Part shown: piece after piece, positions 5,144 to 38,958 of the stretch | Layout: the number at the start of each line of letters is the position of its first letter | How positions within the stretch are numbered: the stretch's first letter is position 1 | NCBI RefSeq assembly: GCF_030812295.1 | Contig: NZ_JAUSSK010000004.1 | Location: 1 to 64,000 of the forward strand | Direction of reading: 5' to 3' | Origin: Luteibacter jiangsuensis | GTDB lineage: Bacteria; Pseudomonadota; Gammaproteobacteria; Xanthomonadales; Rhodanobacteraceae | Length of the DNA stretch: 64,000 bases | Program-made: the position numbers and the translations under genes | Notes under the pieces: model-generated | What the model was told of the DNA's origin: nothing | Database searches by the model: none | Seen by the model: only the letters and a program-made list of their open reading frames with translations

Positions 5144-5376
5144 TGCGACTCATCCGGACGTTGCTGCGGCGCCTCATGGCCGTCATTTCGCGGCATCCCC
5201 GGCTGAAGCGCGGCTTGGTCGATCTCGTATATCGCCTGCCGTGGGTCGACATGCGCCTGCGACAGCTGGCGTCCCGGAGCATTCACACCAGCGCCTTCCT
5301 CGATCTCGACATAGAGCGCATGCCGGAAGACAGTCGCCGCAGCCTTGAACGCATCCAGGCAAGGATGCCACGGTGA
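5140..5376 (+). CDS. Small basic protein of a polysaccharide locus
   Basis: A 78-residue reading frame tightly packed between two glycosyltransferases: its ATG overlaps the upstream TGA by four bases and its TGA overlaps the GTG of the next gene by four bases. The N-terminal half is strongly basic and amphipathic (MMRLIRTLLRRL, then RHPRLKRGLVDLVYRLPWVD); the C-terminus ends with a charged helix around MPEDSRRSLERIQARM. Similar basic tails occur at the ends of O-antigen glycosyltransferases and of the FkbM protein at 34171-35559. It may be a detached tail domain aiding membrane association. I do not recognise a named family. Confidence 0.7.
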   Translation: MMRLIRTLLRRLMAVISRHPRLKRGLVDLVYRLPWVDMRLRQLASRSIHTSAFLDLDIERMPEDSRRSLERIQARMPR

Positions 5377-8171
5377 AGATCGACATCGACATGCAGGGGA
5401 TCCAGACCGAAAGCCGTCACCGCGGCATCGGCCGCTATACGCGCGCCACGACCACGGAGTTCCTGCGCCTCATCCAGGGACGGCACGACGCCCGACTACT
5501 CTTCAATGCAGCCTTGAACGGCATCGACGAACCAGTCGCAGATCTCGCCAGCGTGAATCTGCATCCGTCGCGAAGTGTGTTTGGCCCGCTCCGCAGGACA
5601 GCGTTCGACAATCCGGCCAACGAGGCCCGACGCGAGGCCGCCGAACGGGTCTACAGTCATGCCCTGGACATCGGTGGTGCCGACGTCGTCTGGTTCACCA
5701 GCCTGATCGAGGGTTACAAAGACGACGCGATCATGCCTCACGAGCTCCCCCGGCAACTGACGGTGGCGACGCTCTACGACATCATTCCGCTGCACACTGT
5801 AGATGACCTTGGCCAGTCTCGCGCGCGGGACTGGTATATGCGCAGGATCGACATGCTCCGTCGCTGCGATCTTCTGCTCGCGATTTCCTCATGGGTACGT
5901 GACGATGCGATCGAGAGGCTGGGGTTGGACGGGAGCCGCATCGTAACCATCGGCGCGGGAGTCGACGCCAGGTTCCGGCCTGCGCCCCGGAATGAACATG
6001 ATCCCGGGTTCAATCGACGAATGGGCATCGATCGACCGTTCGTGCTTTACACCGGCGGAACAGATAAACGAAAGAACGTGGAGGTGCTATTCCCCGCGTT
6101 CGCGGCACTGCCCGCGCCGCTTCGGGAAAGGCATCAACTGGTCGTGGTGGGAAGCCTCGATGTACCGACGCGGCGTCGCCTCGAGCGCGCCGCGCGCGCA
6201 GCGGGTCTGGATGCCGCGCAAGTCGTATTCCCCGGCCATGTTCCCGACGAGGACCTGATCCGTCTCTATCAGACGTGTGCCCTGTTCGTCTTTCCTTCAG
6301 CGCAGGAAGGTTTCGGCTTGCCGCCCCTGGAGGCGATGGCGTGCGGCGCACCCGTCATCGTCAACAACGCCACAAGCCTGCCAGAGGTAGTAAACGATCC
6401 GTCGGCCATGTTCGACGCGTCGGCACCCTCTTCGATCACCGCAGCGATACGCAGCGTACTGGAAGATCCTGCCCGCACCGACGCGCTGAGGGAGGCTGGG
6501 ATTCGACGCGCTGGCGAGTGTACGTGGTCAAGGGTCGCAGCGCGCGCTATCGGCGCCATAGAAGCAGCCTCGGCCAGGTTCACCGGCGAGCGGGAGGCTA
6601 CTGCGCCGAACTATGCACCCGTCAACAACCCAAGCGACGGCGCAGGTGTTCAAATCCCCCTATACCTCATGGATAGAACCAACGCCGCTGCGCTCATTCC
6701 AACACTCCGCGCATGGCCCGGACTTGTCGAGTGGCAAGGCCTCTTTCCTGCTACGCCGGTATCCGAACTAGACCGCTACCGTGTTGGCGGCTGGCAAGCG
6801 GTCGTGTCCCCCGAAGTCGTCGACTGGTCTCTCGTCCTTGCTCACGAATCGGTGGACGTGCGGCAAGTGGACGTGCGACAGGACCCACATGCACGGCGCC
6901 AATGGATCCAGGACAATGCTTCGCATCCACTCGTTCGGCAGCGCATCGCGGAAGACGACATCGCCGCACGGGTAGCTCCCCGGCTCGACACCGCGGACCT
7001 TGCACGGATCGCGGATGCACTCGATCGCCTTCGCCCCAGGGCACGTGCGCGATGGCTCGTGGACGTGACCCACATCGCCAGTAACGATCTAGGCACCGGC
7101 ATCCAGCGGGTAGTCCGCTCGGTCCTCGTACGTTGGCTGCGCACTCCTCCCGTCGGGGTGCGCATCGAGCCCATCGTCTTTCGTGGAGGGCAATATCACC
7201 ACGCGCACACTTACGCGGCGGAACTGCTCAAGGTACATGTGCCAGTGGGACTGGTCGAAGATACGGTCGCGATCACGGGCAAGGAGACCTTTGTTGGCCT
7301 GGACTGGGCCATGGAAAGCCTGCCGGCCAGCGCAGAGCTGTTATGGACCTGGCAGCGCGCCGGCGTGGGAATGCACTTCATCATCCACGACCTTCTCCCG
7401 ATCACTCTTCCAGAGGCGTTTCATCCGCAAACGCGGGAGTCATTCAATCGATGGTTGCAGCTGGTTACGGACCTTGCCGATGCCATGCATTGCATATCAC
7501 GCAGTACGGCGGATGAATTGACAACCTGGGTGCGAACGGAGCATGGGAATAGGATGCCTACGATATCCACATTCCCGCTCGGGGTCGAAGTGCCCTCCAC
7601 ATCCCAGCCCGTCCAGTTGGACCCTGCCGTCGATAGTGCTCTCAGCACACGCCCTTCCTTCCTCATGGTCGGCACCATCGAACCGCGAAAAGGCCATGAA
7701 CAGGCGCTGGATGCGTTCGAACTCTTGTGGGAATCGAACGCCGATGTAACTTTGCTGATCGTGGGGAAGCAGGGCTGGTTGGTCGGAGAGCTGATTCAAC
7801 GGCTCGAGCGGCACGTCGAACGTGGGCAACGTCTATTTTGGTTCGAGGCATGTCCCGATGTCATGCTGGATACGTTGTATCGCGCCAGCACCGCACTTCT
7901 CGTACCGTCGCTGGGCGAGGGCTTCGGGTTACCTGTCGTCGAAGCCGCGCAGCGGGGCAAACCCGTCATCGCCCGATCACTCAAGGTCTTCCGTGAGATC
8001 GCCGGAGACTACCCGTCGTATTTCGACGGCACCTCGCCAGCCGCCCTTGCCACCTACCTTGCCCGATGGCTCGCCGAACGTCCCATGCATGCTCCTCGCA
8101 ACAATTGGCCGACGTGGGACGAAGCGGCGTCCGTGCTAGCCGGACGCATCCAGGAAGTGTTGCCGCGGTAG
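5373..8171 (+). CDS. Two-domain (GT4-GT4) glycosyltransferase
   Basis: A 932-residue fusion of two GT-B family 4 domains. Domain 1 covers about residues 1-400 (RGIGRYTRA near the start, YTGGTDKRKN, and the E-x7-E region PSAQEGFGLPPLEAMACG). A linker of about 150 residues follows. Domain 2 starts near WLVDVTHIASNDLGTGIQR and carries FLMVGTIEPRKGHEQ and PSLGEGFGLPVVEAAQRG. Both catalytic regions look intact, so it may add two linkages. GTG start with a GTGA overlap. It is a clear paralog of the 1149-residue protein at 30668-34117, which has an extra C-terminal domain. Likely role: assembly of a repeating polysaccharide. Confidence 0.93.
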   Translation: MKIDIDMQGIQTESRHRGIGRYTRATTTEFLRLIQGRHDARLLFNAALNGIDEPVADLASVNLHPSRSVFGPLRRTAFDNPANEARREAAERVYSHALDIGGADVVWFTSLIEGYKDDAIMPHELPRQLTVATLYDIIPLHTVDDLGQSRARDWYMRRIDMLRRCDLLLAISSWVRDDAIERLGLDGSRIVTIGAGVDARFRPAPRNEHDPGFNRRMGIDRPFVLYTGGTDKRKNVEVLFPAFAALPAPLRERHQLVVVGSLDVPTRRRLERAARAAGLDAAQVVFPGHVPDEDLIRLYQTCALFVFPSAQEGFGLPPLEAMACGAPVIVNNATSLPEVVNDPSAMFDASAPSSITAAIRSVLEDPARTDALREAGIRRAGECTWSRVAARAIGAIEAASARFTGEREATAPNYAPVNNPSDGAGVQIPLYLMDRTNAAALIPTLRAWPGLVEWQGLFPATPVSELDRYRVGGWQAVVSPEVVDWSLVLAHESVDVRQVDVRQDPHARRQWIQDNASHPLVRQRIAEDDIAARVAPRLDTADLARIADALDRLRPRARARWLVDVTHIASNDLGTGIQRVVRSVLVRWLRTPPVGVRIEPIVFRGGQYHHAHTYAAELLKVHVPVGLVEDTVAITGKETFVGLDWAMESLPASAELLWTWQRAGVGMHFIIHDLLPITLPEAFHPQTRESFNRWLQLVTDLADAMHCISRSTADELTTWVRTEHGNRMPTISTFPLGVEVPSTSQPVQLDPAVDSALSTRPSFLMVGTIEPRKGHEQALDAFELLWESNADVTLLIVGKQGWLVGELIQRLERHVERGQRLFWFEACPDVMLDTLYRASTALLVPSLGEGFGLPVVEAAQRGKPVIARSLKVFREIAGDYPSYFDGTSPAALATYLARWLAERPMHAPRNNWPTWDEAASVLAGRIQEVLPR

Positions 8172-25854: not shown

Positions 25855-27381
25855 ATGCGGCGAAGGCACAGAGTTTCCGTGGCAGAACTCTCGCACAGGT
25901 ACAAATCGAGTAACGACTCGCTGACACGAGTCGAATTCGCAGCGATTGTCTACCTTACCCTTCCTGTTGCCCTGTTCTTCGTGGCATACATGAGGGTGCA
26001 GATATGGGTGCCGGCCGTTGCATGCATAGCATTCGCCCTTGCCCGCTGTGCGAAGCGACTGGGGCCCACTCTCGTTCACCAAAGCCGTTTCCTTGGCCTG
26101 TACTTTTGGATGATCTCCGCGGCAACCGTGTTTGCGAGCGGGGCCTTCGGCCTTGTTCACACGAACAGCGATTGGATCAAGCACTTCGCCGTCTTTCGTT
26201 TCCTGATCGATAACGACTCGCTCGTTGGAATCGCTTCGGGATATGACGGCGGAACCTTGCGATATTACCTGGGCTGGTACGTTGTCCCGGCCCTGCTCAC
26301 GAAAATCTTTTCAGTCCAAGCGCTTTCCTTTCTGCTCGGGTCCTGGACCACGATTGGGCTGTATCTCTTTTTTTCGGTCGCCTCAGCGCTGACCAATCGC
26401 CCCCGATGGCGTTATGCCCTTCCTTTGGCCTTCCTTCTCTTCAGTGGCTCAGATGCGATCGGCACCGCCATAACGGGTTTTCGGATGGGACCCATCTACC
26501 ACATTGAATGGTGGTCCGGCTGGATAGAGTTCGGCTCGAACTATACAGACATCACCTGGGCACCCCAACACGCACTTTCCGCATGGCTGGGCGTGGCCCT
26601 AGCGCTCCGCCTCGTCTCTAATGCATCGTCTCTCATCGTCATACCGGTGGTGACGACTGCAGTGATTCTTTGGTCACCGTTCTCAGCGATAGGGCTCACA
26701 CCACTCTTTTTGTATGTCCTTTGGCGAAACCGCAAGGAATTCACGTGGGAAGTGCTGTTCAGCGCACTGTCGATGCTTGTCGTGTTGGCCGCCATTGCGC
26801 GGTACCTCCGAGCTGGCACGGAAGATATTCCATTCGACGCCGTCTGGAATCTCCGCTGCCTGGGCCAGGGGCGGCCTTGCTACTCATTCTTCGGCTATCT
26901 GCTCTTCGTGGCCCTCGAAGTCGTCCCGGCCATACTTATTTGCCAGACCATTACGAAATGGCGCGACGGCATGGTGTGGATCGCGTCCTTGACCTTGCTC
27001 GGAATGCCTTTCGTCAGCTTCGGAGCATTCAACGACCTCAATCTGCACGGGTCTATCCCCGCTCTTGCGCTTCTGTCGCTCACCGCATGGCAAGGCATAG
27101 CCCGAGGAACGGTATGGCTGAGGGCGGCATTCGCAGCTGTCGTAATCGTCGGATTACCCACTCCCATCCAAGAAATACGAAGGGCGCTCTGGATGAAGAA
27201 AGGACCGACCAGCACGGATACGAACTTTGCGTACGTATTCGAGCATGACGCGTGGCTGCGACCTCAATACATGATCGACAAGATACCTTGGATCATCAGG
27301 CGTCCCTATACCGCTCCTCACGCTCGGCCTGAGGAGCGCGGCCACGAGGTCGTTGATCCTACGCGCCACTCCCACCTATGA
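25855..27381 (+). CDS. Polytopic membrane protein of the polysaccharide locus
   Basis: A 508-residue protein with about ten to twelve membrane segments, beginning around [20 protein letters not shown] after a hydrophilic N-terminus. An extra-membrane loop with acidic residues ([23 protein letters not shown]) follows an early segment, as in GT-C-like proteins. Unlike the proteins at 8210 and 21328 it lacks a C-terminal soluble domain. It could be a GT-C glycosyltransferase or a polymerase-like protein; a WzyC signature was not seen. It starts three bases after manC and its last 23 bases overlap the convergent manB. GC content is lower than in neighbours. Confidence 0.7.
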
Positions 27382-28707
27382 GGGAACGAAGCTCAGCGGT
27401 TCTAACCTCCATAAGCGCTCTGTCACCACGCGCCTCGACATTCAAGCGCAGCAGCGGCTCGGTATTCGACGACCGAAGATTGAAGCGCCACGTCCCGAAC
27501 GACATGCTAACGCCGTCGATGTTCTCCACGCTCTGCGCCGATGGTTTGTAATGGTTCACGATACGAGCCACGGTAGCCGCGGCATCATCCACCCGAAAGT
27601 TGATCTCCCCGCTACACGGGTAAGCTGCCATCCGCTCTGCCAGCATGTCGGTCAGCGAGGTACCCGTCTTGCCAATGCGCTCGGCGACTAGCAGCCAAGG
27701 AATCATTCCCGAGTCGCAATACGCGAAATCGCGGAAATAATGATGTGCACTCATCTCACCGCCGTAAACGGCGTCTTCGGAACGCATGCGTTCCTTGATG
27801 AAGGCGTGACCCGTCTTGCTCTCCACGGCGATACCGCCGGCGGCTGCAACCATATCGACCGTGTTCCAGGTCAGCCGTGGATCGTGGATGATTCGCGACC
27901 CCGGATGCTTCTCGAGCATTTGCGCCGCAAGCAGGCCGACGATGTAGTAGCCTTCGATGAACCCGCCTTGCGCATCGAACAGGAAGCAACGATCGAAGTC
28001 ACCGTCCCAGGCGATGCCGAGGTCCGCGCCGGAAGCGACCACAGCTTTCGCGGTGACATCCCGATTCTCAGGCAACAAAGGGTTGGGGATGCCATTCGGA
28101 AAACTGCCATCCGGCTCGTGATTGACGCGAACGAAGGTGAATGGCAGATGCGGCTCGAGCAGGTCGACGATGGCGCCGGCACCGCCGTTGCCCGCGTTGA
28201 CCACGACCTTTAGCGGGCGCAGTGCGGCAACGTCGACGTAACCAAGTAGATGCGTGATGTATGCCGATTTATCGTGGTCCGCGCTGATCATGCCGCGACT
28301 CGCCCGGACCGGGCCGAACGCATTGTCTTCCACCATGCGCTCGATGTCGCGCAGGCCCGTGTCTCCACTGATCGGGCGAGCGCCTTCGCGCACCAGCTTC
28401 ATCCCGTTGTAGTCGATCGGGTTGTGGCTCGCGGTAACCATGATGCCGCCGGCGACACCGCGATGTGCTGTCTGGAAGTAGACTTCCTCGGTTCCGCACA
28501 GGCCGATGTCGATTACGTTGCGGCCCTCGTCGGCCAGACCGCGAGCCACTTCGGCGGCGAGCGCTGGACTGTCGAGCCGAATGTCGTATCCGACCACCAC
28601 CTCGCCATCGGCCACGGCGCGCGCAAACGCACGACCAATGCTGTAGGCGACGTCAGAATTCAATTCATCCGGCACCCGGCCGCGAATGTCGTAAGCCTTG
28701 AAACACT

Positions 28708-28711
<4 letters not shown>
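27359..28711 (-). CDS. manB: Phosphomannomutase
   Basis: A 450-residue alpha-D-phosphohexomutase converting mannose 6-phosphate to mannose 1-phosphate. The phosphoserine loop is [18 protein letters not shown], the metal loop is [12 protein letters not shown], the sugar loop is [10 protein letters not shown], and the C-terminal phosphate-binding loop is [12 protein letters not shown]. The start [11 protein letters not shown] is the CpsG-type N-terminus, with GGAAG ahead of it and an ATGA overlap with rmd. It closes the minus-strand D-rhamnose operon and is convergent with 25855-27381. Confidence 0.95.
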
Positions 28712-30667
<1,956 letters not shown>

Positions 30668-33600
30668 TTAACGAGATTCACTATTGTCCACGACGAATCC
30701 TGTGGACTCAAGCTCCGGGAATTTCCGCCGGTCGCCTTCTTCAACCGGCACTAGATCCATGTCCCGAAAAACGACCTCGGCGTCCCCGTCCACCATGACC
30801 CGGATGCAAAGGTCATCAACGTCTTCATGAACGCATATGTTCAGCTGGGCAACCAGATCTTCGCCCTCGCTTAAGACTGACGAGCCGATACGCCATGCAC
30901 CGCCATGCGCTTCGACATCGAGCCAGGCCGTACCGGCACCGTTTTGGCGCGCCCCAGCCACACGCAACTCGTAGTCACCGGCCTTCAGCTGGATGAACGG
31001 GGTCGCGTACAGCACACCGGGAGCGCGCTCAGAGATCCGTTCCCCGCGTACAAGCCGCCCCGTGGTGAAGGTCGCCCGGTAGTCCGATGCCTTGAAATGA
31101 CGAGCCGCGCAGGGCGTCCAGGAATCGTACCAATGGCTGCTCACGGCCACGCTGGCGAGTTGCCTTGCGCTTTGGCTCCAAGTCAACCACGGCATGCCGG
31201 CAGACGGTGGCGCGAGACCCGCACGATCGAGTTCGAGCCAGCGCTCGACGGCGGCAGCCATCGCCTCTGGGTCGGTGCCACTGAAATAGAACGCGTGCTC
31301 GCCAGCGACTTCTTTGAAGACAGGTAGATCGCGCGCGATGATAGGCCTTTCGTACTGCGCCGCTTCGATGAGCGGTAGCCCGAACCCTTCGCCTTCGGAT
31401 GGCGCCAGCAGGGCCGAAGCGGTCTGGTACATCGCGACCAATTGGCTATCGTCGGCACGTTCCAGCCAGAACAATCGCTTCCCGGCCTGGGCATGCCCGC
31501 GAAGACGCGTCACCAGGCTTTCCACGCGCCATCCCGACTTGCCGATCAAGACCAGATTCACATCATGGCCCCGCTCCCAAAGCGTTTCGAAGGCTGCGAG
31601 CGTCTGCGCGTGCCCCTTGCGGGGTTCGATCGTGCCGACCATGAGGAACGTCGGCCTGCCACGGAGATCGAACGGCAATACGCCAACGGCGCCATCCGCC
31701 TGGGCAGCCGGCACGAGGTCTGCACCAAGATGAAACCAATCGATGCGGAGCGGCCGGGTACGCACAGGCATCGCCTGTCCAAGCCACTGCTTGAACTCAT
31801 CAGCCACCGTGCGCGAAATGCAGATGATTCCATCGGCAAGTTCCGCGATGGCTTCATACCAGAGGCGGAAGGTGGGTAACCCGTTCTCGTCGAAGCAATC
31901 CGGCCGCAAGAGTGGAAGCAGGTCGTAGACGACAAAATGGACGTCTACGCCTCTGCTCCTCATCCGGACGTACGTATCGCGCAGATAGGGGACAAGGTGG
32001 GCAGCTAGATCCAGCCCCACGAAGATGTCGCCCTGGCGGAACTCGACGGGTGCGTCTGGGGGCAGCGACGCGCCATCGTAGAACTGCCTTGCACACCATT
32101 CCCGCGCATGACGGAATACACCGTCTGGTCGTATGTAGACAGGCTCGACGCGGAAACCTTCCGGGGGCGCGGCCATCAATCCAGCGGTGATGTTCCGCAC
32201 CACTCGCTGGATACCGGTTTTTGCATCTTCGATGACAAGATGCGACACATCGACGTATAGCGTGCGAGCGGGGCGATGAACCGGCGCGTTCGCGGCCACA
32301 GCCATGGCCAGCCGCGAGACATCGTCCCGCGCCCACGCGGCTACACCGGGTATTCCCGCGACTTCTTCAATCAGTGCGGCCCGAGCATTGACCTTTTCCC
32401 GCTCGGAGAAGGAAGACCAGGCCGCGTCACCCCGGGCGATCGCGTCGGCGGGTAACGAGGAAAAGGCAGCCTCACCCGCTTGCTTGATGAACCCAAGTGC
32501 CCGATAACCACCGGCTCCGTAGAGAATCGCAGCCAATAGCCGTTCGTCGTCGTGCCGCGTTCTTTCCAGCACCCGACCGTAGCTCGCATCCACGAACCAG
32601 AGTTGGGCAGGAATGCCCCGCACCGCCTGCAGCACCGCTACGGTACCCGGATCGTCGGATACCTGAACGAGCACGTCGCCGGCCGTTCGTGGATCGAACG
32701 TCGATAACGAGCGACGTCTCCACCCGGCAGGAAGCGATCCACCCACCACTTCCTGCCCAGCTGCACTGGAGAAAAGGTCGACGCCGCGGGAAGAACCGAG
32801 ATTAAGTGCTTCGAAATCGGCAAGGGAAACCGGTCGGGCTGCGAGTAATGCCAGGCGCTCGCCCGTTTCGTCGTTGCGCGCCGGGGAAGTTCGGGAAGAT
32901 GATGCGGGAACGACGCTTTCAATGGCCTGCCAGGCCATATCGGCCGATGCTTCCCATGAGAACGTGGTCACATGCCGCTCCGCATGGCGCTTCATACGAT
33001 CACGAAACGCCTCGTCGGTAAGGCCCTGCATGATCTTCGCGGCGATCGAAGCGGTGTCCCGTGGATCAAACAGAGCTTCCGCCGCTCCGATCACCTCGGG
33101 AAGGCTCGTCGTCGACGAACCAACGACGACAGCCCCACAAGCCATCGCTTCCAGCGCCGGCAGGCCAAAGCCTTCATGCAAGGACGGGAATACGTAAAGC
33201 TTGCAGGCATTGTAAAGCCGGACGAGCTCAGCGTCGGAGACGAAGCCGGTGAAAATGAGCTCATCGTCTGTCAGCCCGCTCGCGTCTCTCACCGCGACGA
33301 GTTCGTCTCGCTCTTTCTTGTCGAGATTGCCGACAAAGACCAACTGGTGGCCAGAGCGCACGGCTGGAGAAAGCGACGCGTACGCCGCGATAAGGGATGC
33401 CAGGTTCTTCCTGGGATCAAACCCGCCGGCATACATGACAAAGGGGCGACTAACACCATACCGCCGACCGACGGCCGACGGGTTCAAAGACGGCTCAATG
33501 CGCCGGAAATCGTCGCCCACGGCGGCAGAAACGTTAACGATCCTGCCGGCGTCCAACCCGAGCAACTCGATAGCTTCGTCGCGGGCCGCCTGCGAGATAG

Positions 33601-34117
33601 CAAGAAGTAGGTCGCAGCGGCGAAGGTGCTCGATCTTGGTCCGGTACCAGGGTGCGACGCCATCCAGCACCAGGTAAAGTTCGGGCATGACCATCGGAAT
33701 CAGGTCAAAGAGAATCCCTACCTGCAGCGCGCGCGAACGCCCTGGGACAGAAGTGACAACCGAGTCGAAGAATCCATCCACCATGCTCGCGGTCAGAATG
33801 ACATCCGCGCCCAGCGATTCGAGGAAGTGCTCCCGCAGGCGTTCGGCTACGAGGTTACGGCTGTAATTTGCAGGATCCGTGGATGCCGTACGCGCAAGGC
33901 TCTCCCATGACACGACACGGTCGGCCGGCACTGCCCCTTCAAGAAGATCCCGGACGACTCCCACCGACTCCGCCATGGTTCCATTGAGGGCGACCCAGAC
34001 CTCATGGCCACGGTTCGCCCGCGCCATCGCTAACGTGAGCGACAGGCAGTAGCGCCCGACACCTCGGATGCGACCACTCGGAGACTGACAGGCCTGAAGA
34101 TCTATGACGACTCGCAT
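30668..34117 (-). CDS. Multidomain glycosyltransferase (GT4-GT4-beta domain)
   Basis: A 1149-residue protein. Domain 1 (about 1-410) is a GT-B enzyme with RIRGVGRYCLSL, MYAGGFDPRKNLASL and PSLHEGFGLPALEAMACG. A helical linker follows. Domain 2 (about 650-1000) starts at YVDVSHLVIEDAKTGIQR and has FLMVGTIEPRKGHAQ and PSEGEGFGLPLIEAAQ. The final 130 residues (from about YRATFTTGRLVRGERIS) look like a beta-sandwich, possibly carbohydrate-binding. Both E-x7-E regions are present. In D-rhamnan and mannan O-antigen systems, multidomain transferases such as WbdA build the repeat; a similar role is inferred from its place between fkbM/wzt and gmd/rmd. Confidence 0.92.
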   Translation of the reverse strand: MRVVIDLQACQSPSGRIRGVGRYCLSLTLAMARANRGHEVWVALNGTMAESVGVVRDLLEGAVPADRVVSWESLARTASTDPANYSRNLVAERLREHFLESLGADVILTASMVDGFFDSVVTSVPGRSRALQVGILFDLIPMVMPELYLVLDGVAPWYRTKIEHLRRCDLLLAISQAARDEAIELLGLDAGRIVNVSAAVGDDFRRIEPSLNPSAVGRRYGVSRPFVMYAGGFDPRKNLASLIAAYASLSPAVRSGHQLVFVGNLDKKERDELVAVRDASGLTDDELIFTGFVSDAELVRLYNACKLYVFPSLHEGFGLPALEAMACGAVVVGSSTTSLPEVIGAAEALFDPRDTASIAAKIMQGLTDEAFRDRMKRHAERHVTTFSWEASADMAWQAIESVVPASSSRTSPARNDETGERLALLAARPVSLADFEALNLGSSRGVDLFSSAAGQEVVGGSLPAGWRRRSLSTFDPRTAGDVLVQVSDDPGTVAVLQAVRGIPAQLWFVDASYGRVLERTRHDDERLLAAILYGAGGYRALGFIKQAGEAAFSSLPADAIARGDAAWSSFSEREKVNARAALIEEVAGIPGVAAWARDDVSRLAMAVAANAPVHRPARTLYVDVSHLVIEDAKTGIQRVVRNITAGLMAAPPEGFRVEPVYIRPDGVFRHAREWCARQFYDGASLPPDAPVEFRQGDIFVGLDLAAHLVPYLRDTYVRMRSRGVDVHFVVYDLLPLLRPDCFDENGLPTFRLWYEAIAELADGIICISRTVADEFKQWLGQAMPVRTRPLRIDWFHLGADLVPAAQADGAVGVLPFDLRGRPTFLMVGTIEPRKGHAQTLAAFETLWERGHDVNLVLIGKSGWRVESLVTRLRGHAQAGKRLFWLERADDSQLVAMYQTASALLAPSEGEGFGLPLIEAAQYERPIIARDLPVFKEVAGEHAFYFSGTDPEAMAAAVERWLELDRAGLAPPSAGMPWLTWSQSARQLASVAVSSHWYDSWTPCAARHFKASDYRATFTTGRLVRGERISERAPGVLYATPFIQLKAGDYELRVAGARQNGAGTAWLDVEAHGGAWRIGSSVLSEGEDLVAQLNICVHEDVDDLCIRVMVDGDAEVVFRDMDLVPVEEGDRRKFPELESTGFVVDNSESR

Positions 34118-34170: not shown

Positions 34171-35559
34171 TTATTTCTTTCTTTTGGCAATAGCCGCGTG
34201 AAGCAATGCCTCCGCGACGGCGGCCTCATCAGACATCGCGACAGGTCCATCGACGGCGACGGACACGTGCGACTGAAACAGGAACGCTCGTGCACGACGG
34301 CCCAATCGTGTATCGGGGCCCAAAAGCGCCCTCGCTGCAGGCCGCACCCCGGGGATGGCCATAGCGATGCGCATGGAGGGCCGTGCTGCCCGGGCAAAGC
34401 GCGCCACGAGCGGGCGGATCATTCTCCAGCCACGCCGTATTGCCGCGCGACCGGCGCTGCTGGCGCCACGCAGTGGCGCGGTGATCCGCCACGAAGTACT
34501 AGAGACGAAGGCACCGATCATGGCATCCCTGTGTGCCACAGCCGTGCGCAGCAGTTGCGCTTCCCGCTGCAGATCCAGGTAGCCACGAGTCGCCTCCTCG
34601 ACTTCCGACCTGGTGTGAGCGCGCACGTGGTGCAGTTGGGCTTCGACCGACGCCAGCGTGGCACGTGTTTCGGCCAGCTGCGCCCTCGCCTCTTCGCATT
34701 CCGAAACAGCCTGCTGGCATGCCAGGTCACGCTCCTGAAGCTGGGTCGCATGCAACGCGTCCAACGATCGAAGATGTTCGGATAAGCCGACAACGGCGTG
34801 CCGTGCTTCGGCAGCCTCCGCGATGGACGCACGCAACCGCACGTGCACTTCATTCACTTCATCATGCGCCTTCTTATCGTCCACACGGACGAAGTCGTCG
34901 AATACGTTCGGCGGCAAGTCGAAAGACGGCAGGAGTTCCGCGCGTTCCTGCGCCACGTAGTAACGATTCAGGCCATCACGATATGCGAGCACATAGCCAC
35001 GATCGACCAAAAGGGATTCCCATTGCTCGTGAACATCGACCTGGCTGTTGGGCTCGGTGGCTTCCACGGTGATGACCCACGGACGCACGTCCAGGAACGA
35101 ACAGGATGCCAGGGCCGTCCGTTCAGCACCTTCGCAGTCCACCTTCAAAAAGTGCACTTCGCGAACGTCCTGCTCCGAAAATATACTGTCGAGGGTCACT
35201 GTGGGGACGCGATATTCCGACACCCGGTGGCCCGCCGCCCTGTGTCGCTCGGCAAATCCCGCGTCGCTCGTGGATAGCCCCGTGCCTTCCACCTCGAAGA
35301 GCTCGAGAAACCCTTCCTGCTCGGCGACTGCGACGTTGAGATTGATGTCGTGAGGGCGATCAGCCTCGAGCATCTCGAACCAATGTTTCACCGGCTCGAT
35401 ATTGATACCTCGCCACCCGGCGAGCGAAAAGGCCTTTGTAACTGAATCCTTGATAGGATGCTGCGCGCCCACATCTACGTAAAACCCATGCCGGACGTGC
35501 TTGAGCGCACGGTGCAACATGATGTCTTCGAAGTTCTGGGCGTAGCTTACGAATGTCAT
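34171..35559 (-). CDS. FkbM-family methyltransferase with long coiled coil
   Basis: A 462-residue protein. Residues 1-210 are an FkbM methyltransferase (SYAQNFEDIMLHRAL, YVDVGAQHP, FLKVDCEGAE). Residues about 230-350 are rich in Ala, Glu, Gln and Leu with heptad-like spacing and predict a continuous coiled coil. Then comes SSTSWRITAPLR (353-364), a motif common in O-antigen enzymes, and a basic amphipathic tail. The gene lies two bases after wzt. In E. coli O8/O9 the methyltransferase/coiled-coil protein WbdD caps the chain and sets its length for Wzt recognition; this layout suggests an analogous capping ruler, although FkbM is not homologous to the full WbdD (no kinase domain). Confidence 0.88.
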   Translation of the reverse strand: MTFVSYAQNFEDIMLHRALKHVRHGFYVDVGAQHPIKDSVTKAFSLAGWRGINIEPVKHWFEMLEADRPHDINLNVAVAEQEGFLELFEVEGTGLSTSDAGFAERHRAAGHRVSEYRVPTVTLDSIFSEQDVREVHFLKVDCEGAERTALASCSFLDVRPWVITVEATEPNSQVDVHEQWESLLVDRGYVLAYRDGLNRYYVAQERAELLPSFDLPPNVFDDFVRVDDKKAHDEVNEVHVRLRASIAEAAEARHAVVGLSEHLRSLDALHATQLQERDLACQQAVSECEEARAQLAETRATLASVEAQLHHVRAHTRSEVEEATRGYLDLQREAQLLRTAVAHRDAMIGAFVSSTSWRITAPLRGASSAGRAAIRRGWRMIRPLVARFARAARPSMRIAMAIPGVRPAARALLGPDTRLGRRARAFLFQSHVSVAVDGPVAMSDEAAVAEALLHAAIAKRKK

Positions 35560-35561
35560 GG

Positions 35562-36785
35562 TCAGGTGGTCACATCGATGTGAGGTGGAATCCAGGCGTT
35601 CCCGACGAAATGGGGGTGCGAGTGATTGGCGACGGTAAAGATGAGCGCCAGATCACGCCATTCGTAGTTGTCGACCAGATGCGTGTCCGTGCTGACGAGA
35701 GCCGTCGAGATGGAGTACGTACCTGGACCGAGGTTCATGGGGAAACGCGCGACGTAGCGGACCGCCTGCCCGGTCCTGGCGTCTTCGACGACTTGCTTGG
35801 TGTGGTGCGTGTTGGTACCGAAGATGGACTGTCCCAGACGGTCCTTGATCAGGTAGCCGAAGACAAGCCTGGGAATGTCAGCGTTGATCTTGACCTCGAC
35901 CCGCAACTCCACCGGCTGCCCGACGTCGATGTACTCGACCGGATCGCCCTGCTCGGAGTACAAGCGGATCGAAGCGACAACGGCCTCGAGCGTGCCACTC
36001 GTTGTCTGTAGCTGCCCACCTTCCAGGCGCTCGACCTTCATAGTGCTGTTTTCGCGCTCGGCGATCAGCGCGTTGTACGCGTCCATGACTTCGACAGGAT
36101 CGCCGTCTTTCAATACCCGGCCTGCCTGCAGAAGGATCGCCCTGTCACAGAGACTCTGGATGGCGCCGCTGTCGTGCGACACAATCATCAGGCTCGTCCC
36201 GCGTTCGCGAAACTCCTTGATCCGTTTGAAACACTTGTGCTGGAAGTACGAGTCGCCGACCGAAAGTGCCTCGTCCACAATGAGGATATCGGGGCGAAAT
36301 GCAGTCGCCACGCTGAACGCCACGCGCATCTGCATGCCGCTGGAGTAAGTGCGAACGTATTCGTCAAAATAGGCACCGATCTCAGCGAATGCTTCGATCT
36401 CGGGCATGGCGCGGTCAATTTGCTCACGTGTGAAGCCCATGAGTCCGGCGGCATGGTAAACGTTCTGCCGCCCCGTGAGATCCGGGCTGAACCCCATGCC
36501 AAGTTCGAGGATGGCGGCAATTCGTCCGTTAACGGATACCGACCCTTCGCTCGGCATGAGGGTACGTGTGATGAGCTTGAGCAGGGTGCTCTTGCCCGCA
36601 CCGTTCTGCCCGACGATTCCGATCGCCTCACCCCTGCCGACAGCGAAGGAGATGTCGCGGATGACCCAGTGCTCGGCCTTGGGCGTCACCTGTGCGCCGA
36701 ACCAGGATGCGAACCGCTTGAACTCGCTTCCGTAGTCGCGAAATGCCTTGCCGAGCGCCTTTACTTCCAGAACCGGATCCATCAT
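35562..36785 (-). CDS. wzt: ABC transporter ATP-binding protein, O-antigen export, with C-terminal carbohydrate-binding domain
   Basis: A 407-residue Wzt. The ATPase domain has Walker A GIVGQNGAGKSTLLKL, the family YSSGMQMRVAFSVA signature, Walker B PDILIVDEAL and the H-loop IVSHD. Residues about 250-407 form an extra C-terminal domain like the Wzt domain that in O8/O9a-type systems binds the modified non-reducing end of the chain. That implies a terminal modification, for which the neighbouring FkbM methyltransferase is the natural candidate. ATGA overlap with wzm. Confidence 0.96.
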   Translation of the reverse strand: MMDPVLEVKALGKAFRDYGSEFKRFASWFGAQVTPKAEHWVIRDISFAVGRGEAIGIVGQNGAGKSTLLKLITRTLMPSEGSVSVNGRIAAILELGMGFSPDLTGRQNVYHAAGLMGFTREQIDRAMPEIEAFAEIGAYFDEYVRTYSSGMQMRVAFSVATAFRPDILIVDEALSVGDSYFQHKCFKRIKEFRERGTSLMIVSHDSGAIQSLCDRAILLQAGRVLKDGDPVEVMDAYNALIAERENSTMKVERLEGGQLQTTSGTLEAVVASIRLYSEQGDPVEYIDVGQPVELRVEVKINADIPRLVFGYLIKDRLGQSIFGTNTHHTKQVVEDARTGQAVRYVARFPMNLGPGTYSISTALVSTDTHLVDNYEWRDLALIFTVANHSHPHFVGNAWIPPHIDVTT

Positions 36786-37576
36786 AGGACATCGACCATT
36801 TCCGGCGCCGCCTTGCGAAACATCATGAATGCCAGAGCCAACAGCACGAGTGAGCCCAGAGCGGTCCAGCCAAGGGCGACAATATCCGGGGTGCGATTGA
36901 ACAGCATGACGTCCTGGAAGCCACCAACGATGTAATAGAGCGGGTTCAGCTCGATGATCCGGCCGAAGCCATGCGGAAGGATACTGGGCATATAAACGAT
37001 AGGCGTGATCCAGAACCAGAGCTGGAGGACAACGGCCATCACCTGACCGACGTCACGCACGAACACGTTTATCACCCCGAGAAGCAGCCCCAGACCTAGC
37101 GAGAAAGCCACGTTCACCGCTACCAGCAAGGGCAACCAACCCAGCGCGGATGTCGGGAAGTGACCCACGAGCGCGAAGATCGCCACCGTCGCGGCGAACA
37201 GTAGGAGATTGCTGACCAACGCCGTGCCGACCGCGATGAAAGGCAAGCAAATCCTCGGGAAGAAAATCTTCTTCATAAGATTGCCGTTGTCGACGAACAA
37301 TGTCAGCGAACGCTGTACAACCTCGACGAATAGCGACCAGGCAAGCATGCCCGCCATGAGATAGATGGAGTACGCGTATTGATTGGTCACGCCGGGAAGC
37401 TTCGCGCCCATGACACGAGAAAGCACCAGCGAGTAGATAGCCACCTGGGCCAACGGCTGAAGCACCATCCAGGCTGCACCGAGGCGACTACGCGCGAACC
37501 TCGCCTTCAGGTCATTCTTGACCGACGACAGGATGAAATGGCGATAACGCCAGGCTGAGCGCAGAAGCTCACTCAT
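36782..37576 (-). CDS. wzm: ABC transporter permease, O-antigen export
   Basis: A 264-residue ABC-2 type permease with six membrane segments. The N-terminus contains SVKNDLKARFARSRLGAAW and LQPLAQVAIYSLVLSRV, then FVDNGNLMKKIFFPRICLP and the C-terminal LNPLYYIVGGFQDVML, all typical of Wzm/KpsM-like O-antigen exporters. It starts ten bases after the metB stop, with its GAGGTG ribosome site inside the metB end, so the exporter is probably expressed from the metB promoter. Confidence 0.95.
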   Translation of the reverse strand: MSELLRSAWRYRHFILSSVKNDLKARFARSRLGAAWMVLQPLAQVAIYSLVLSRVMGAKLPGVTNQYAYSIYLMAGMLAWSLFVEVVQRSLTLFVDNGNLMKKIFFPRICLPFIAVGTALVSNLLLFAATVAIFALVGHFPTSALGWLPLLVAVNVAFSLGLGLLLGVINVFVRDVGQVMAVVLQLWFWITPIVYMPSILPHGFGRIIELNPLYYIVGGFQDVMLFNRTPDIVALGWTALGSLVLLALAFMMFRKAAPEMVDVL

Positions 37577-37586
37577 TCATGACACC

Positions 37587-38756
37587 TCAACGCGCTAGCG
37601 CGTGTGTGAGCTCGGACCGCAGATCTTCCACATCCTCCACACCCACCGACAACCGGATCAACCCGTCGCTGATCCCCAGCCGCTTGCGCGTCGCCGGCGG
37701 AATCGACGCATGGGTCATGACACCCGGATGCTCGATCAGGCTCTCCACACCGCCGAGCGACTCGGCCAGCGCAAAGATCTCGCAGCGCTCGAGCATCTTC
37801 CGGGCGGCCCGGATGCCCCCCTTCACCTCTGCCGAGATGATTCCGCCGAAGCCATCCATCTGGCGACGCGCCAAGGCGTGCTGCGGATGCGACTTCAGAC
37901 CCGGATAGATCACCCGCTCGATGGCCGGGTGCTTTTCCAGCCAGCGGGCGATATCCACGGCGGATTCGCAGTGCGCCTTCATGCGCAGGTGCAGGGTCTT
38001 CAGGCCACGCATCGCCAGGAACGAGTCGAACGGCCCCGCGACCGCGCCGACGGAGTTCTGCAGGAAGCCCATGCGTTCGGCCATCTCGTCGTTGGCGGCG
38101 ACCACGATGCCGCCAACCATGTCCGAATGACCGTTGAGATATTTGGTGGCCGAATGCAGCACCAGGTCCGCGCCGTACTCGATCGGGCGCTGGAGCATCG
38201 GTGAGCAGAAGGTATTGTCCACGACCAGGATCAAGCCATGCTTCTTCGCGAAAGCGGAAAGCTTGGCCAGGTCGACCAGCTTGAGCATGGGATTGGTCGG
38301 CGTTTCCGCCCAGATCATCCGCGTGTTCGGCTTCAGCGCGGCCTTGAGAGCGGTGGCGTCATTCAAGTCGACGAAGCTGAAATCCAGGCCGGCGGAGCGG
38401 CGGCGGACGCGCTCAAACAGACGATAGGTACCGCCGTAGAGATCATCCATGGCGATGACATGGTCGCCGGAATCGAGCAGGTCCAGCACCGTGGAGGCGC
38501 CACCTAGGCCGGAACCGAAGGCGAAACCGGCAACACCACCTTCAAGGTCGGCCACGCAGCGCTCGTAGGCCATCCGCGTGGGGTTCTGGGTACGCGAGTA
38601 CTCGTAGCCCTGATGCTTGCCCGGGCTGGATTGCACATAGGTGGACGTCGCATAGATCGGCGTCATGATGGCCCCGGTCGACGGATCGGGATGCTGGCCG
38701 GCGTGAATCGCCCGCGTGCCGAGACCCAGTGCTTGCGCCGCTTTCTTGGAAGCCAT
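37587..38756 (-). CDS. metB: Cystathionine gamma-synthase/lyase family PLP enzyme
   Basis: A 389-residue Cys/Met-metabolism enzyme. The PLP lysine is in SATKYLNGHSD, with YEYSRTQNPTR, FGSGLGGAST, DDLYGGTYRLF and SLGGVESLIEHPG also present. Family members make or cleave cystathionine and cannot be separated safely by sequence alone; the CBS-domain PLP enzyme at 44658 would complete a transsulfuration pair. ATG at 38756 gives the normal N-terminus; the frame extends 20 codons upstream without support. metB is the established border of the lps locus opposite etfA in Xanthomonas, and this gene has that position. Confidence 0.93.
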   Translation of the reverse strand: MASKKAAQALGLGTRAIHAGQHPDPSTGAIMTPIYATSTYVQSSPGKHQGYEYSRTQNPTRMAYERCVADLEGGVAGFAFGSGLGGASTVLDLLDSGDHVIAMDDLYGGTYRLFERVRRRSAGLDFSFVDLNDATALKAALKPNTRMIWAETPTNPMLKLVDLAKLSAFAKKHGLILVVDNTFCSPMLQRPIEYGADLVLHSATKYLNGHSDMVGGIVVAANDEMAERMGFLQNSVGAVAGPFDSFLAMRGLKTLHLRMKAHCESAVDIARWLEKHPAIERVIYPGLKSHPQHALARRQMDGFGGIISAEVKGGIRAARKMLERCEIFALAESLGGVESLIEHPGVMTHASIPPATRKRLGISDGLIRLSVGVEDVEDLRSELTHALAR

Positions 38757-38958
38757 TGATCTACCTAAAATAATTGTTTCCGAGCGCGCACTATGCGCCA
38801 CGGTAAAGCGGCCCATATTACCGTCTTGACGGTTTCTCGGCTGCGAAGTCTGAAGTGACGTTCATCTACTGGATGTGCAGGAGACGGAGGCGCCGGGATC
38901 GCCCATAATCGCCGGCATCGCCCGCGGGACCTCGCCCAGGGCCACGCCAAGGTCGTTC
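38757..38958. other. Divergent intergenic region metB / rmlB
   Basis: About 200 bases between two divergent operons, AT-rich near metB (TAAAATAATTGTTT). TTGACG at 38826-38831 could be a -35 box for rmlB, but no matching -10 hexamer is found 16-18 bases downstream. Nothing else was recognised. Both operon promoters must lie here. Confidence 0.5.

Follow-up and report, generated by a model that had tools for sequence, protein, structure and literature searches.

In a 64,000-nt window of Luteibacter jiangsuensis (NZ_JAUSSK010000004.1), to the whole of which all coordinates refer, the gene next to the exporter gene wzt encodes a 462-aa protein that joins an FkbM methyltransferase head to a helical rod and a basic tail. 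We propose, at a probability of roughly 0.77, that this FkbM-coiled-coil protein terminates, and measures the length of, the chains of an O8-type D-rhamnan O-antigen exported by an ATP-binding cassette (ABC) transporter. The proposal draws on the domain layout, a predicted helix with heptads, a rod-end signature common with WbdD of Escherichia coli, the gene order, a WbdA-like polymerase, an O8-like Wzt and the methyl pocket of that Wzt. An earlier note on this DNA had suggested a WbdD-like capping and ruler role. That role is supported by the O8/O9 gene order, by a Wzt C-terminal domain closest to that of O8 (46% identity) with a putative methyl pocket, and by a coil of variable length set against a head of constant length. 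Chain capping sets the length of an O-antigen and whether it is exported.

Head, rod and tail of the FkbM protein

The following parts were distinguished in the protein.
34897..35559, minus strand: FkbM methyltransferase head, residues 1-221 (Pfam match at 29-190 and invariant residues)
34504..34884, minus strand: rod, a continuous predicted helix, residues 226-352 (AlphaFold2, coil scan and heptad periodicity)
34468..34500, minus strand: rod-end signature STSWRITAPLR, residues 354-364 (invariant residues and junction profile)
34174..34467, minus strand: basic, partly amphipathic tail, residues 365-462 (AlphaFold2 helices 361-399 and 444-461, the latter short and C-terminal)

The head matched Methyltransf_21 (PF05050) at residues 29-190 with E 5.1e-25, which bears out the FkbM assignment of the earlier note; the scores were 89 bits against a cut-off of 22.7 for PF05050 and 61.3 against 37.7 for TIGR01444. 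An alignment was made of 25 of the 26 FkbM proteins, the one at locus L048 being left out for its split gene. In it, head residues D29, G31, A32, K139, D141, E143, G144 and E146 were invariant, and we take them to belong to the S-adenosylmethionine site. No kinase domain was matched by Pfam in the protein at E up to 0.1. The earlier note foresaw a version without a kinase; this is not a new feature, since WbdD of E. coli O8 is described as a simple methyltransferase with no kinase (PMC3482155).

AlphaFold2 predicted a single unbroken helix at residues 226-352 (127 residues; mean predicted local distance difference test score, pLDDT, 83.4 for the protein), after which a break predicted at low confidence (353-360) leads to a further helix (361-399). 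The block pLDDT of the rod was 91-95 up to residue 300 and dropped from 85 to 59 by residue 350. A COILS-type scan gave P>=0.5 at residues 279-315 only and P>=0.3 over the stretch 279-343. As many residues at P>=0.5 arose in 10 of 1000 shuffles when residues 224-355 were permuted, and in 0 of 500 for residues 216-462. The coiled coil of about 120 residues claimed earlier is thus right as a helix and generous as a high-probability coil. Across the 25 aligned homologues, coil hydrophobics peaked at a period of 3.5, with a mean power of 4.35 compared to a mean of 1.00 and a maximum of 1.56 in 200 shuffles.

Rod length ranged from 92 to 331 aa in the 25 proteins (coefficient of variation 0.36), whereas head and tail had coefficients of 0.014 and 0.11. 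Rod lengths in multiples of a heptad were considered and dropped: among 24 lengths (all 26 proteins except the split L048 and L056, which lies outside the pattern), all seven remainders were present, with remainder 1 in 8. At L048 (9661-11141, plus strand), the gene is apparently split into a 358-aa open reading frame (ORF) and a 146-aa ORF bearing the rod-end signature.

The tail is basic, as had been noted, with a net charge of +16 over 75 residues from the motif onward. An amphipathic moment as strong was reached by 10 of 1000 shuffles for the window protein and 14 of 1000 for O9 WbdD, and by 431 of 1000 for O8 WbdD, which is not above its shuffles. A PDB sequence search with the FkbM protein returned no relative (best E 0.59), and the top Foldseek matches were nearly all generic methyltransferase folds, one of them at E below 0.001.

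The rod-end signature links the protein to WbdD

The rod end reads S-x-SWR-x-T-x-P-L-R (the SWR signature). Past residue 221, S356, W357, T360 and R364 were the only positions invariant in all 25 aligned proteins. The pattern S-x-SW[RKL]-x-T occurred 40 times in 1037 ORFs of the examined loci, which were picked for carrying such genes, compared to a shuffled mean of 0.3.

A junction profile of 56 positions was built from 38 family segments; WbdD was excluded from training, and the motif in O9 WbdD had been spotted by eye beforehand. The profile found WbdD in E. coli HS (O9) with 30.0 bits (E 7.3e-10 in 38 ORFs; runner-up 4.0 bits) and in E. coli IAI1 (O8) with 36.5 bits (E 3.5e-12 in 19 ORFs; runner-up about 0 bits). 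A different coil stretch of O9 WbdD scored 0.7 bits. Six of the 996 ORFs without the strict pattern exceeded 20 bits, namely proteins in the slot after wzt at loci L046, L111, L115 and L116 and two long ORFs (L106, L112); the next-ranked ORF had 6.6 bits. The coil scan placed coils at residues 475-517 and 557-594 of O9 WbdD and 259-294 of O8 WbdD.

The FkbM head gave no significant blastp match to O8 or O9 WbdD, in agreement with the earlier view that it is from another methyltransferase family. Because the head fails this homology test, we do not class the protein as a WbdD, although it probably works like one. The earlier note had also taken it to be assembled independently, and this is contradicted by the rod end, which bears the junction signature of both O9 and O8 WbdD. 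Judged by its sequence, the protein is a different head on a rod end common with WbdD.

Tail homology with WbdD downstream of the motif was looked for with hhalign and not found. A C-terminal helix common with WbdD is likewise not claimed, as 163 of 996 background C-termini matched the score of O9 WbdD with a second-round profile. With the same profile, O8 WbdD reached 12.6 bits (E 0.0057) and was beaten by 1 of the 996 background C-termini, an FkbM-coil protein (L046). A short C-terminal helix does recur in the family, with 32 of 63 FkbM-coil homologues outscoring the non-FkbM background, although 26 of these 63 had gone into the profile; the C-terminus of O8 WbdD is similar to this helix, and that of O9 WbdD is not outstanding. 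The helix could be a docking peptide.

Gene order, polymerase and likely polymer

The gene row on the minus strand is wzm-wzt-fkbM-glycosyltransferase (GT)-gmd-rmd-manB.
36782..37576, minus strand: wzm, permease of the O-antigen ABC exporter (PF01061, E 4.4e-23)
35562..36785, minus strand: wzt, exporter ATPase with a C-terminal domain predicted to bind the cap, 407 aa (ABC_tran, E 5.7e-21; Wzt_C, E 1.9e-37)
34171..35559, minus strand: FkbM-coiled-coil protein, 462 aa, proposed O-antigen chain terminator and ruler (PF05050, E 5.1e-25; TIGR01444, E 1.3e-16)
30668..34117, minus strand: WbdA-like polymerase, 1149 aa, two GT4 modules and a C-terminal all-beta domain (Pfam, blastp, AlphaFold2)
29606..30658, minus strand: Gmd, GDP-mannose 4,6-dehydratase, for GDP-D-rhamnose supply (TIGR01472 above cut-off, E 2.7e-145)
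28708..29628, minus strand: Rmd-like reductase, presumed GDP-D-rhamnose supply, from its Epimerase family and its place after gmd (PF01370, E 1e-39)
27359..28738, minus strand: phosphomannomutase, CpsG/ManB type (four PGM_PMM domains; best NCBIfam match PRK15414 CpsG, below cut-off)

The ORFs of wzt (35562-36785) and fkbM (34171-35559) are separated by 2 bases, as was stated earlier. The row has the wzm-wzt-terminator-polymerase arrangement of the E. coli HS (O9) and IAI1 (O8) records. Window Wzm is 42-43% identical to O9 and O8 Wzm. The GT shares 44% identity with O8 WbdA across 405 columns, and two stretches of O9 WbdA align to it at 42% and 33%. Because gmd and an rmd-like gene are present, the polymer is most likely a D-rhamnan.

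At the C-terminus of the polymerase (residues ~1006-1124), AlphaFold2 predicted with good confidence an all-beta domain that resembles a carbohydrate-binding module by eye and has no Pfam match; most of the longer polymerase relatives (~1250-1430 aa) gave no blastp match to it. A tRNA-His call by ARAGORN at 33098-33174 (minus strand), inside the GT ORF, is probably a false positive, as scanning the entire window against Rfam at gathering thresholds gave no match. Upstream of wzm, the ORF at 37587-38816 and those beyond it are presumably metB and rmlB/A/C/D-like genes, judged from their translations alone. A second large ORF (5373-8171, plus strand; 932 aa) lies amid further glycan-like genes, and its N-terminal start looks like that of the window polymerase by eye.

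Wzt and its predicted cap-reading pocket

35592..36005, minus strand: Wzt_C carbohydrate-binding domain, residues 261-398 (PF14524, E 1.9e-37; pocket mapped on A. aeolicus Wzt)

This domain, too, had been predicted in the earlier note. Window Wzt is 52.6% identical to O8 Wzt over 403 columns and 43% identical to O9 Wzt; for Wzt_C alone, identity to O8 is 46% over 150 columns, and the O9 match is weak (26% over 76). Homology to A. aeolicus Wzt spans window residues 37-402 (E 4.9e-84). In that protein, the 3-O-methyl of the cap lies between Leu300, Thr346, Ala348 and Trp362, contacts run from Asn313 to the ring oxygen and from His350 to the C2 hydroxyl, and the isolated carbohydrate-binding domain bound 3-O-methyl-D-mannose and not plain mannose (PMC9445017).

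At A. aeolicus positions 299, 300, 313, 346, 348, 350 and 362, the residues are Y L N S A V W in the window (Y311, L312, N325, S360, A362, V364 and W376), Y M N A A H W in O8 and I L N S G S R in O9. The Asn, Ala and Trp of the methyl-cap pocket are all present in window Wzt_C, and the predicted pocket is one that retains the Trp and Ala of a 3-O-methyl reader. Val at the C2-contact position is found in the window and in 68 of 75 FkbM-adjacent Wzts, which suggests that the methyl position or a neighboring contact differs from that of the known 3-O-methyl-mannose readers.

The pocket was surveyed in 126 Wzts, 2 of which were classed as "edge". After de-duplication at 98%, the FkbM-adjacent Wzts had Trp362 in 61, Ala348 in 61 and Val350 in 56 of 63, compared to 28, 10 and 3 of 47 other Wzts. 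After clustering at 60%, Trp, Ala and Val were found in 13, 13 and 10 of 14 FkbM-adjacent clusters and in 14, 4 and 3 of 30 others. Across these alignments, the cap pocket of Wzt appears to vary with the type of head, in a way inseparable from relatedness.

The slot after wzt in relatives

The gene following wzt was chosen as the longest ORF on the same strand with a start no more than 400 bases away, a rule that may pick a wrong gene if the neighbor faces the opposite way; 8 Wzts had no next ORF (6 "other", 2 "edge"). Among 63 distinct FkbM proteins right after wzt, a coil was found in 60 and the SWR module in 57, whereas the 41 other genes in this place had a coil in 22 and the module in 12. 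Genome contigs were surveyed for the best 80 of at least 531 confirmed FkbM homologues. Within this set, 47 of the 74 with enough upstream DNA lay within 200 bases behind a Wzt with a C domain, and the 73 complete proteins carried a coil in 70 cases and the tail module in 65. Luteibacter, Rhodanobacter, Massilia, Pseudomonas, Desulfosporosinus and several metagenome bins from other phyla are among the record titles of the matches listed.

In the family, matches to the FkbM protein at E<=0.001 were present in 38 of 233 genomes, some of them in the coil or tail only. In most fetched loci, the homologue follows a Wzt with a C domain and precedes a GT, with gmd, rmd and metB nearby; L045 and L050, with intervening ORFs, are exceptions. 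The ORF sets of relatives were thinned greedily, so that genes opposite a longer ORF are absent from them.

Relatives without FkbM in this place carried other heads. Pfam scanning of 18 of their slot or near-slot proteins found Methyltransf_11/12/23/25 types, Methyltransf_24, Sulfotransfer_3 (above cut-off in L121, below it in L103) and DUF4915, and found no capping-type head in L118, L120, L125 and L127. Many of the non-FkbM slot proteins possess both a coil and the signature, and fusions to WbsX and other GT modules occur in some; no signature is present in the Methyltransf_24-headed proteins of L110, L113, L114 and L126. At L116, the slot is held by a WbdD relative that is 35% identical to O9 WbdD over 678 columns.

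Other forms were seen in the slot. The proteins of L057, L103, L104, L111 and L118 are ~1600-1830 aa long with an SWR module (degenerate in L111); in the three that were scanned with Pfam (L103, L111, L118), the module stands ahead of WbsX and other GT modules in one chain, reminiscent of Klebsiella pneumoniae O7 and O12. L089, L091, L092 and L093 show a reversed order, with a coil, a C-terminal methyltransferase (by Pfam in L089, L092 and L093) and no SWR module; L089 and L092 contain DUF4214, and the Wzt pocket at all four loci is nearly FkbM-like.

Proposed mechanism and its alternatives

The tail past the SWR signature would sit at the inner membrane, beside the polymerase (GT 30668-34117), and the helical rod, probably oligomeric, would keep the FkbM head ~19 nm away (127 residues x 1.5 Å). 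A growing chain long enough to reach the head would be O-methylated at its non-reducing end, and elongation would then stop; the C-terminal domain of Wzt would read the methyl cap and admit the chain to export. We infer the D-rhamnan, the methyl cap, the binding to membrane and polymerase, the oligomer and the length control.

Several results weigh against this proposal. The sequence-based coil signal of the window protein itself is moderate. Its likeness to WbdD is limited to the junction, with nothing found past the motif by hhalign (probability 0.2-1.3%). Window Wzt has Val where A. aeolicus and O8 have the C2-contacting His (His350, the contact being seen in A. aeolicus). At 45% clustering, the association of pocket and head was gone, with 2 FkbM clusters left and nothing significant; relatedness may therefore be the cause of the head-pocket pairing. 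Among 23 genus genomes, just 9 had an FkbM slot protein with a full head (these are 9 of the 20 FkbM-domain places in the genus), and 27 of the 74 homologues in the contig survey had no detected Wzt directly ahead of them. The literature matches listed contained no O-antigen structure for this organism, and a terminal methyl is hence not known. Terminators are not the sole carriers of the signature: in a sample of the phylum Pseudomonadota, the SWR module was present in 29 of 249 genomes (the window's own included), and of 33 places outside the window, 11 were directly behind wzt, 17 had a Wzt somewhere in the fetched locus and 16 had none. The SWR signature is associated with Wzt, but by itself is no mark of a terminator.

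FkbM-family enzymes act on many substrates, and the head may be a decorating methyltransferase for internal or side-chain sugars, with the neighboring Wzt_C reading something else. The 27 homologues away from a detected Wzt speak for such a role, which is nevertheless very unlikely: relatives have in the slot a WbdD-type protein or coil-mounted heads of other transferases, the Wzt pocket retains the methyl-binding Trp and Ala, and a Pfam scan of the seven proteins from wzm to manB showed no other terminator candidate. Somewhat easier to entertain, but still quite improbable, is that rod and signature form a general membrane or complex tether of glycan enzymes, so that the likeness to WbdD would be uninformative on termination. 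The 16 signature carriers without Wzt fit a tether, as do several carriers in the phylum-wide sample that end right past the motif and the four Methyltransf_24-headed slot proteins that have no signature. Set against this, the signature is found in those 57 of 63 FkbM proteins behind wzt and in both E. coli WbdDs, and the rest of the gene row independently indicates an O8-type system.

It is also conceivable, though unlikely, that the head caps the chain and licenses export while the rod merely oligomerizes or tethers, with length set by enzyme stoichiometry. Length control by the coil is presented as settled in two cases only, the E. coli O9 serogroup and K. pneumoniae O12, and K. pneumoniae O1 is cited as a case in which the cap does not control length (PMC11231755, PMC5082667). 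The more than 3-fold variation of rod length among family members (92-331 aa) is compatible with this as well, but the head-rod-anchor plan is the same as in proven rulers, and the window rod of ~127 residues, or 19 nm, is near the ~200 Å of WbdD. That a methyltransferase gene and an exporter came together by chance has a negligible probability and was rejected, as 63 distinct cases of fkbM beside wzt remain after de-duplication. We retain the terminator and ruler as the preferred reading.

There is about an even chance that O-antigen terminators are, more generally, a plug-in system. Unrelated heads (FkbM, other methyltransferases, methyltransferase-kinase, sulfotransferase-like and DUF4915) would be swapped on a common SWR-ended rod with the Wzt pocket swapped along, cap chemistry and perhaps chain length would be predictable from sequence, and the FkbM-headed class, met with under record titles from several phyla, would be a major unrecognized member.

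Novelty and significance

No FkbM coiled-coil terminator was found among the literature matches listed, in a search that mostly excludes subscription papers; the nearest is a statement on Ochrobactrum (PMC10888714). Six spellings of the SWR motif occurred in no paper in the literature full text searched. As far as these searches reach, the FkbM head on a WbdD-type rod, the common SWR junction and the pairing of head and pocket are new. Should FkbM-coil proteins prove to be terminators, the large set of "FkbM family methyltransferases" encoded beside Wzt would acquire a function open to experiment. Through the SWR junction, terminator candidates with unknown heads can be sought by sequence, and head-pocket pairing may allow a cap to be predicted from the genome.

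Comparison with known systems

Coiled-coil terminators are already published as diverse and widespread (PMC11231755). In K. pneumoniae O4, O7 and O12, as proposed here, a coiled coil joins the terminating enzyme and the polymerizing part, but the heads differ, being a 3-deoxy-D-manno-oct-2-ulosonic acid (Kdo) transferase in O4, another methyltransferase-kinase in O7 and a glycosyltransferase in O12, and in O7 and O12 polymerase modules are fused (PMC11231755). In Ochrobactrum, an FkbM protein also belongs to O-antigen clusters and was said in 2024 to control O-polysaccharide length, with reference to the authors' earlier work, whereas a coil, a signature or an argument from Wzt does not appear in that account (PMC10888714). 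WxcB of Xanthomonas campestris is a rhamnan O-antigen gene product called similar to the methyltransferase and kinase domains of WbdD; its mutant had no O-antigen, with polar effects not excluded, and the wxcB mutant of X. euvesicatoria had unchanged lipopolysaccharide (PMC4878081). WxcB resembles the present case in its rhamnan O-antigen and its relation to WbdD, a relative of which also follows wzt in L116, but it is not an FkbM.

For the reader of the cap, the A. aeolicus WzmWzt exporter with its 3-O-methyl caps is alike in its methyl pocket (Leu/Thr/Ala/Trp compared to Leu/Ser/Ala/Trp in the window) and different in the His replaced by Val. O9 Wzt, from a system whose chains end in methyl-phosphate, has an Arg aligned at the position of the window Trp.

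In the E. coli O9 and O8 records, a GDP-mannose gene pair precedes wzm and wzt, after which come a methyltransferase gene, assigned to WbdD from its position, and a large GT that bears the annotation wbdA in HS. O9 WbdD of E. coli HS has 708 aa, in agreement with PMC3482155, and export of O9a requires capping (PMC3482155). The coil of WbdD is reported to hold the capping head ~200 Å from the polymerase, and a change in coil length to change chain length (PMC5082667). The window protein has in common with O9/O9a WbdD the head-rod-anchor plan, the junction signature (E 7.3e-10) and the slot after wzt; it differs in lacking a kinase and in having no significant likeness in the head.

In function, the protein is best modeled on O8 WbdD, which is a methyltransferase with no kinase. 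Its ORF in E. coli IAI1 (425 aa) carries the label "class I SAM-dependent methyltransferase" and was identified as WbdD by position. The two systems are alike in gene order and in a methyltransferase followed by a coil and a basic tail with a SRSWRITQPLRW junction, and their partners are similar (Wzt 53% identical; polymerase 44% over its first 405 columns). They differ in that the window head is from another methyltransferase family, the window rod is longer (~127 residues, whereas the O8 junction is already reached at residue 308), and the gmd and rmd-like genes of the window point to a D-rhamnan rather than a mannan.

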